DNA from: Thermoplasmata archaeon
GTDB lineage: Archaea; Thermoplasmatota; Thermoplasmata; Thermoplasmatales; Thermoplasmataceae
DNA length: 46,029 bases
Direction of reading: 5' to 3'
Assembly (NCBI GenBank): GCA_021818675.1
Contig: JAKATR010000039.1
Location: forward strand, 1 to 46,029
Shown: piece after piece, positions 41,754-45,961 of the stretch
How positions within the stretch are numbered: position 1 is the first letter of the stretch
Layout: every line of letters starts with the position of its first letter
The notes under the pieces: generated by a model
Told to the model about the DNA's origin: nothing
Databases searched by the model: none
The model's input: only the letters and a program-made list of their open reading frames with translations
Translations under genes and position numbers: made by a program

Positions 41754-41763
41754 TTTAAATATA
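41754..41763 (+). promoter_or_regulatory. TATA-like box of the ZIP-like gene
   Basis: TTTAAATATA is centred about 24 nt before the ATG at 41783 and directly abuts the palindrome 41765-41782. Confidence 0.45.
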
Positions 41764-41764
41764 G

Positions 41765-41782
41765 TGTAAGGATTTCCTTACA
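41765..41782. promoter_or_regulatory. Perfect 18-bp palindrome at the ZIP-like gene start
   Basis: TGTAAGGATTTCCTTACA has perfect 8-bp arms around TT. It ends at the base before the ATG and begins right after the TATA-like box, covering the probable transcription start. This is the position of a repressor operator; metal-dependent regulators of the DtxR/MntR type bind dyads of similar size. Confidence 0.55.
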
Positions 41783-42535
41783 ATGTATAAATTGCTTATA
41801 ACACTCCTTTTATCGGCAATAATGGGATTTTCAATATTTTTTACGTTTCCACTAATAATGGCAAAAAACCTTGGAGAAAAAAAGGTAAGGATCTTAAGTT
41901 CCGTTGCAGTTGGAATCATCATATTCCTTATTGCAGACGTATTTTCAGACGCTTCAACAATCATATATGGCAATTCAGCCAATGGAGGTTACATATCATC
42001 TCCTTTTTATGATCTGGTGTTTTTTGTTTCCCTTGCAGTTGGATTTTTTATAATTTTCATAGCTGAGGGAAACGGAAAGAGACAATCTTCCAAGTTAAGG
42101 CTATCATTTTTTATAGCTTTGGGAATAGGTTTTCAGAATTTAACGGAAGGGATGGTTTTTGGTGCTGACAATCTTAACATAGGACTTGTAGGAGTCACAC
42201 TGGTTATTCTGGTTGGTTTCATTCTTCAGAATATAACAGAGGGCTTTCCTATTGTATCTCCATTTCTTGGAGAGAAGAAAAAGAATGGCAAAACAATTCT
42301 TGGTTTACTCTTTATTGGTGGTTTTCCTACAATTCTTGGAGGAGGCATTGGCTACTTCTATAACTCAAATACCTTTGATCTCGTATTTGATGGTTTAGCG
42401 ATAGGAGCAATGTTTTATGTTGTTATTCCAATTCTTAAACATCTTATCAAAGATCAGGATCCTGCAATGACAAGAATTGTTTATCTTAGTGCTTTTACAG
42501 GCTTTCTCCTGGGTTTTCTTGTGAATTTGATCTGA
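41783..42535 (+). CDS. ZIP-family metal transporter, Gln-substituted
   Basis: A 250-residue polytopic protein with about eight membrane segments, matching the ZIP (GufA/ZupT) layout. The two metal-binding helices carry FQNLTEG (Q118, N119, E122) and LQNITEG (Q149, N150, E153). In ordinary ZIPs both positions start with His (HNxxEG), so this protein has lost both metal-binding histidines while keeping Asn and Glu. It may prefer a different ion or work weakly. No histidine-rich loop between helices 3 and 4. Controlled by the palindrome at its start codon (inference). Confidence 0.75.
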   Translation: MYKLLITLLLSAIMGFSIFFTFPLIMAKNLGEKKVRILSSVAVGIIIFLIADVFSDASTIIYGNSANGGYISSPFYDLVFFVSLAVGFFIIFIAEGNGKRQSSKLRLSFFIALGIGFQNLTEGMVFGADNLNIGLVGVTLVILVGFILQNITEGFPIVSPFLGEKKKNGKTILGLLFIGGFPTILGGGIGYFYNSNTFDLVFDGLAIGAMFYVVIPILKHLIKDQDPAMTRIVYLSAFTGFLLGFLVNLI

Positions 42536-44554: not shown

Positions 44555-45961
44555 TTATTCGTTCCTGACCCATTTCCCATTGGACAATTCCCAGATACCG
44601 TTTGTCCATTTTTCAAAGAACTTTCTGAAACCGTTTCTCATTTCTTCAGGCGTTCGGCTAAAGGTTTCACTTTCTCCTGGCATTAAGTGAATGCCTTCCA
44701 CATGATTATTTATTCGTTTTGATTCGGACAAAAATTGTTTCAGGTAATAAAGTTCGTCTGGGTCTAACCTCATTTTTGCATGCTCAACTTCTCTCATTAA
44801 TGATTCCGTGTCTTTCTCGTAATGCACTATGGATGGATCGCCTTCAGCATTTTCAATGAACATCCTTACTCCAAGACACTTGGTACATTTACCACATGGA
44901 ATAATGGTTCCTTTCACACTCTTACAGGAATGGCATGATCTTTGAAGACTATAGAGATCAGGAAATTCTTTTATGAGAGCCTTTTCGATAACAGAGCCAA
45001 ATACCGGATATACAATTGACCATAAACTTGAGTTTATTCCTTTTAATTCCATGAATTTGTTAAATGCCAGTGCAAAGTCCCATGTCTGATCATAAACTCC
45101 AAAGTAATGGTCGATCCCTTTGTAACTTTCCATTGCTGTAGGGTCATCAAATTCATTTCCCATGATCATATTTGAAATGCCATGTTTATAAACAAATGGC
45201 AGGGAAGCCAGAAGATATACGGGAAAAATAAAGAGCTGAATCGGATAAGAATCGGCTTTCCTTTCAATCTGCTTCTTATCCATTATATCCATGTTTCTCA
45301 GGATTTTTTTATAATAACGGTCTGTATTAGACCATACTTTCATCACGTCAAGTCCCATATTTTTGAAATGATAATATGAGGTTTTTGCAGGAAGCCAGTG
45401 TGCACCGGATTCATTGTAAAAAAATGGCTTTACATCGTAATTCATCTGTCTCATTATTCCCATGGACAGAAGACTTTCCTTTCCACCGGATGAAGAGATC
45501 ATAACACCTCCTTTGCCCTTTACTTCTTCACGATCATTTTCAATAATATTGTCAGCAACTATAACTGTATCACCCTCTGCGGTATGCGGGTTTATCTCAT
45601 CTTCATATGGAAGATATTGACGTTTGAAAAATTCATATCTTCTCCTGCAGATTGAGTTAACGAATACCTCAATGTTATTGATTCTGACCATTTCCCTGAG
45701 GAAATCAACATCATTCCGTGTTACCGGAAAATCAAGTATGAGTTCCTTGGAAAAAAATGAGAAGTTTATGGCGGAGCCGGTCATAGCAAGACCTGCCAAG
45801 TTTTTATTGCTTACTATTTTTTGGTTGTATGAGAATATTTCTTCAAATGAAAATGACTCGTTGCCTTTCATTTTCAGCGTTCCTTTGGATCCATGATCCG
45901 TGATCTTTTCTGGCGTTATGGTTATGCTGTCAAAGCATCTTACCCTATGAGAATATGACAT
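44555..45961 (-). CDS. PP-loop ATPase-like protein with QueC-like cysteine cluster
   Basis: A 468-residue protein. The PP-loop (ATP pyrophosphatase) motif SSGGKES is at 157-163. A C-terminal cluster SCHSCKSVKGTIIPCGKCTK continuing CLG (about 341-363) matches the zinc-binding SC-x(n)-PCGKCxxC motif of QueC (7-cyano-7-deazaguanine synthase). Unlike QueC (about 220 residues) it has a 150-residue N-terminal domain and a 100-residue C-terminal extension. The PP-loop reads SGGKES instead of SGGxDS. Likely activates a carboxyl or nucleoside substrate by adenylation. The ATG has AAGTGAG 5 nt upstream. Function otherwise unknown. Confidence 0.7.
   Translation of the reverse strand: MSYSHRVRCFDSITITPEKITDHGSKGTLKMKGNESFSFEEIFSYNQKIVSNKNLAGLAMTGSAINFSFFSKELILDFPVTRNDVDFLREMVRINNIEVFVNSICRRRYEFFKRQYLPYEDEINPHTAEGDTVIVADNIIENDREEVKGKGGVMISSSGGKESLLSMGIMRQMNYDVKPFFYNESGAHWLPAKTSYYHFKNMGLDVMKVWSNTDRYYKKILRNMDIMDKKQIERKADSYPIQLFIFPVYLLASLPFVYKHGISNMIMGNEFDDPTAMESYKGIDHYFGVYDQTWDFALAFNKFMELKGINSSLWSIVYPVFGSVIEKALIKEFPDLYSLQRSCHSCKSVKGTIIPCGKCTKCLGVRMFIENAEGDPSIVHYEKDTESLMREVEHAKMRLDPDELYYLKQFLSESKRINNHVEGIHLMPGESETFSRTPEEMRNGFRKFFEKWTNGIWELSNGKWVRNE

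Follow-up and report, generated by a model that had tools for sequence, protein, structure and literature searches.

A predicted DtxR/IdeR-type operator of variant sequence at a ZIP-like transporter gene of a Thermoplasmata archaeon

We propose that a short dyad lying directly before a ZIP-like transporter gene serves as operator for a DtxR-family metalloregulator with three domains, a member of what we term clade B whose gene lies at another locus of this genome; from sequence comparison we put the probability of this reading at roughly 0.87. The dyad's sequence would make it a variant among DtxR/IdeR-type operators, and its role is probably to repress manganese or iron uptake. It lies in a 46,029-nucleotide stretch of DNA from an acid-loving archaeon (the window), and the genome to which the window belongs (G000) is a 1.42-Mb metagenome-assembled genome (MAG), 84% complete. 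The comparisons covered 117 genomes from its order (Thermoplasmata, near E-plasma).

Results

A preliminary description of the window had pointed to a flawless 18-bp dyad between a TATA-like box and a start codon, in a span (41754-41782) that comprises the TATA box and the dyad (Table 1). The placement is exact, with the ATG following at 41783, and the 8-bp arms match each other perfectly; the central TT, however, is asymmetric, so that the symmetry extends to 16 of the 18 positions. Symmetry alone is not significant here, since about 2.2 perfect dyads with 8-bp arms and a 2-nt gap are expected per Markov-shuffled window and one was observed. For the exact dyad word, 0.05 matches are expected when up to three mismatches are allowed, and the pattern TWAGG-n4-CCTWA occurs once in the window, at the dyad itself. 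The significance of the dyad rests on its conservation among related genomes.

Table 1. Features discussed in the text. Positions without a genome or locus prefix are those of the window.
Feature	Position	Strand	Basis
TATA box TTTAAATA of the ZIP-like gene	41754..41761	+	Sequence; identical TATA box and identical TATA-to-box spacing in relatives' ZIP promoters
Predicted operator dyad TGTAAGGATTTCCTTACA (TGTAAGG-ATTT-CCTTACA, core GTAAGG-n4-CCTTAC)	41765..41782	.	Sequence; conservation within the genus; copies in relatives
ZIP-like divalent-metal transporter, 250 aa, predicted target	41783..42535	+	ORF; Pfam Zip match; homologues
Clade B three-domain DtxR-family regulator of the window's genome	G000:C49:17366-18016	-	Homology
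Tandem GTAAGG boxes, genus g4	L105, L106, L107 1501-1565; L157, L158 1501-1546		

The ZIP-like protein matches the Pfam Zip family with an E-value of 5.4e-05 and 23 bits, below the curated cut-off of 35.1, and searches against PDB and NCBIfam returned no match; the closest named relatives are Thermoplasmatales archaeon E-plasma and the Thermoplasmata MAG LSA5.bin89. Gln replaces the usual first His in both ZIP signature motifs (QNLTEG, QNITEG), a change that the homologues share and that may alter metal selectivity. With the TATA centre ~26 nt from the ATG, we infer that the transcript is probably leaderless, its predicted start falling near 41783.

Homologues of this gene are present in 42 of the 117 genomes. 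Across the four species read in the window's genus the box is identical, except for one end base in one species, and always adjoins the ATG; conservation does not extend to the DNA immediately before the promoter. Over the order as a whole, an AGG-n4-CCT dyad stands upstream of nearly every ZIP homologue read, against ~0.03 expected per 160 nt, and outside the window's genus its commonest form is AATTAGG-n4-CCTAATT.

The perfect GTAAGG-n4-CCTTAC box was found in 30 of the 117 genomes, a reversed-pattern control being much rarer, and nearly all such sites lie directly before genes for Nramp, ZIP or MFS transporters. Two genomes (G072, G044) carry an intact window-type box before both the ZIP and the Nramp gene, and in a third (G047) a GTCAGG variant precedes both. 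The sites of G065 and G116 fall inside open frames and are probably chance occurrences. At the metal-uptake genes the box overlaps the promoter or the start, as predicted from the TATA box; its distance to the ATG ranges from 0 to ~130 nt, and that from the TATA box clusters at 8 or 16 nt (42 sites). The MFS transporter recurs as a predicted member of the metal regulon (L155, L104-L108, L110, L120, L162), and shows weak similarity to sugar/aromatic-acid symporters. In genus g4, GTAAGG boxes stand in tandem pairs at the MFS and Nramp promoters, with a spacing of 49 or 30 bp, an arrangement that suggests two regulator dimers.

These copies in relatives bear on the proposal, made in the preliminary description, that the same dyad be sought at other metal genes of the genome. 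A scan of the window's own genome found no second copy within one mismatch, and weaker dyad-like matches there were no more frequent than those of the reversed control; the site is single in this MAG, so that the absence of other occurrences, which the preliminary description named as counting against its reading, holds literally there, but the box recurs in relatives before Nramp, ZIP and MFS genes. The relatives offer an explanation for the lone copy: an Nramp gene, the other main target, was found neither in the window's assembly nor in G070 and G071, all three having the ZIP site only.

In the regulator tree, the order's DtxR proteins with three domains fall into clade A (92/97) and clade B (97/99), apart from a short paralogue of ~140 aa. 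The regulator of the window's genome contains the Fe_dep_repr_C metal-binding and dimerisation domain (PF02742, E 2.7e-17, above the cut-off), and gives weak scores to the MntR and DtxR models of NCBIfam. Clade B includes the IdeR of Thermoplasma acidophilum, whose structure has been solved (PDB 4o5v, 4o6j), and matches it at 1e-49. The perfect GTAAGG box is present in 27 of 29 clade-B genomes and 3 of 88 others (Fisher 6e-21, a value that ignores shared ancestry); the two clade-B genomes without a perfect box both have one-mismatch sites, and three genomes have the site only. One genome (G066, L110), 99% complete, has a perfect box before an MFS gene, and neither a clade A nor a clade B regulator was found in it.

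Clade A shows a corresponding association with the other form of the box. It is present in 25 of the 28 genomes that bear ATTAGG-n4-CCTAAT (Fisher 1.8e-07), and in several genomes this sequence lies just upstream of the clade A gene itself. Two genomes in which no three-domain DtxR regulator was found (G051, G056) have no box at ZIP; the exceptions are G036 and G037, where clade A is present and ZIP lacks a box. The ZIP box of G109 is degenerate, and in that genome ZIP directly follows the clade A dtxR gene (L060 1312-2774), a neighbourhood that ties this regulator to ZIP. Three genomes with both clades (G085, G086, G091) have a ZIP gene with a TTAGG box and, beside the clade B gene, an Nramp gene with a GTAAGG box; this within-genome contrast is not exposed to shared ancestry as the counts are.

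The suggestion in the preliminary description of a DtxR/MntR-type operator of a metal regulon thus finds support at the level of sequence, in the ZIP-like gene, the DtxR-family regulator of the genome, the boxes at relatives' transporter genes and the co-occurrence of box and regulator. It should also be considered that the box might be bound by a different metalloregulator, either the short DtxR paralogue, which is likewise present in many genomes, or a Fur/NikR-type protein. We regard this as unlikely, as the short paralogue was not found in G000, G072 or G047 (the last 96% complete), all of which have such boxes, and is widespread where GTAAGG boxes are absent. The AGG-n4-CCT spacing is, moreover, that of DtxR half-sites, and in many genomes a GTAAGG site adjoins the clade B gene, often lying between it and an adjacent Nramp gene.

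Less probable still is a function of the dyad as RNA, in the form of a hairpin at the mRNA start, masking the start codon or sensing a ligand. The sequence does form a 7-bp stem closing a 4-nt loop (z -2.45), but the TATA box just upstream places most or all of the dyad before the predicted start, and GTAAGG/CCTTAC is kept as a word, with no compensatory pairing changes, at varying places relative to the ATG; on position and word conservation the hairpin was rejected. A functionless chance palindrome, for which the roughly two such dyads expected per window and the single genomic copy might speak, is to a good approximation ruled out by comparison, since word, place and target class are conserved across genera and the box co-occurs with one regulator clade.

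Discussion

The clade B operator reading suggests a mode of action. With Mn2+ or Fe2+ sufficient in the cytoplasm, a metal-loaded regulator dimer would form and place one recognition helix into each GTAAGG half-site, at the AGG-n4-CCT spacing. In that position, immediately past the TATA box and spanning the predicted start of transcription, it would keep RNA polymerase from being recruited or from escaping. When metal is short the dimer would come off, and the ZIP-like importer would be made. The 8- or 16-nt spacing from the TATA box puts the box between TATA and start, or over the start, which is the usual site of archaeal repressors that block RNA polymerase. Nramp and ZIP as targets make Mn2+ or Fe2+ the likely sensed metal. 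It is not readable from the ligand residues, because Met occupies the DtxR Cys102/MntR Glu99 position in both clades; in the regulator of the window's genome the DtxR-10/MntR-8 position is Asp, residue 102 is Met and residue 98 is Asp.

How the two clades might tell their boxes apart can be considered in the light of bacterial IdeR, in which Ser37, Pro39, Thr40 and Gln43 contact bases, with Pro39 facing positions 3 and 4 of CCTAA and Gln43 facing the cytosines (PMC10317159). Arg38-Gln39 and Asp43-Glu44 are invariant among the 29 clade B proteins; in clade A, residue 39 is Pro or Ala and residue 43 is usually Glu. The A- and B-boxes differ at position 4 (CCTAAT versus CCTTAC) and at the outer base. 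We infer that residues 39 and 43 may cause this difference, perhaps through a recognition code that need not be simple, as the Pro39 contact at position 4 has been termed unspecific (review PMC10317159).

GTAAGG-type ZIPs are nested as a single group (86/71) among the TTAGG-type ZIPs in the ZIP tree, adjoining the genus that holds both regulators. Clade A was not found in the window's genus or a neighbouring genus (g1 and g3, three genomes at 96% included), where ZIP carries the B-box. The simplest reading, for which these data offer moderate support, is that ZIP changed hands once, from A to B, and that A was lost, but because g1 and g3 are not sisters in the regulator tree, two events or gene transfer could also be responsible. 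We therefore favour, with some reservation, a natural change of specificity within the DtxR family, in which A (Pro/Ala39, mostly Glu43) would read ATTAGG and B (Gln39, Asp43) GTAAGG, side by side in some genomes, and ZIP, on the loss of A in the window's lineage, would have passed from A to B through a small number of operator changes.

Operators of this type are already known. The actinobacterial IdeR/DtxR box (TTAGGTTAGSCTAACCTAA; PMC10317159) shares with the window site inverted half-sites with an AGG/CCT core, overlap with promoter or start, metal genes as targets and a DtxR-family regulator. The window site, at 18 bp, does not fit the canonical 19-bp word: its half-site is GTAAGG rather than TTAGG, it has an archaeal TATA promoter, unlike the actinobacterial box, and it amounts to one dimer's worth of sequence (AGG-n4-CCT), where the actinobacterial consensus would imply two overlapping dimer sites. 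It is on half-site, length and dimer number that we call it a variant and not a canonical IdeR box. Nramp is a classic target of MntR. Asp8 of the MntR of B. subtilis and B. halodurans is matched by an Asp in the clade B regulator, which unlike MntR has three domains and Met in place of Glu99.

The present comparison assigns the operator to the clade of T. acidophilum-type IdeR, predicts a target set and pairs two proposed specificities, A and B. No report of the operator of T. acidophilum IdeR was found in the non-subscription literature searched, nor any prior description of the GTAAGG box. For this IdeR, of the same clade as the window genome's regulator, the comparison supplies a predicted operator and targets (Nramp, ZIP and an MFS transporter), and in genus g15, which we take to be Thermoplasma because its sequence resembles the PDB entry, a GTAAGG box precedes the Nramp gene. 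The paired regulator and operator variants, some within one genome, make DtxR-family recognition and the rewiring of regulons testable with short oligonucleotides.

Elsewhere in the window, the minus strand encodes a 468-aa protein (44555-45961) with no Pfam or NCBIfam match and a CxxC...CGKCTKC cysteine cluster.
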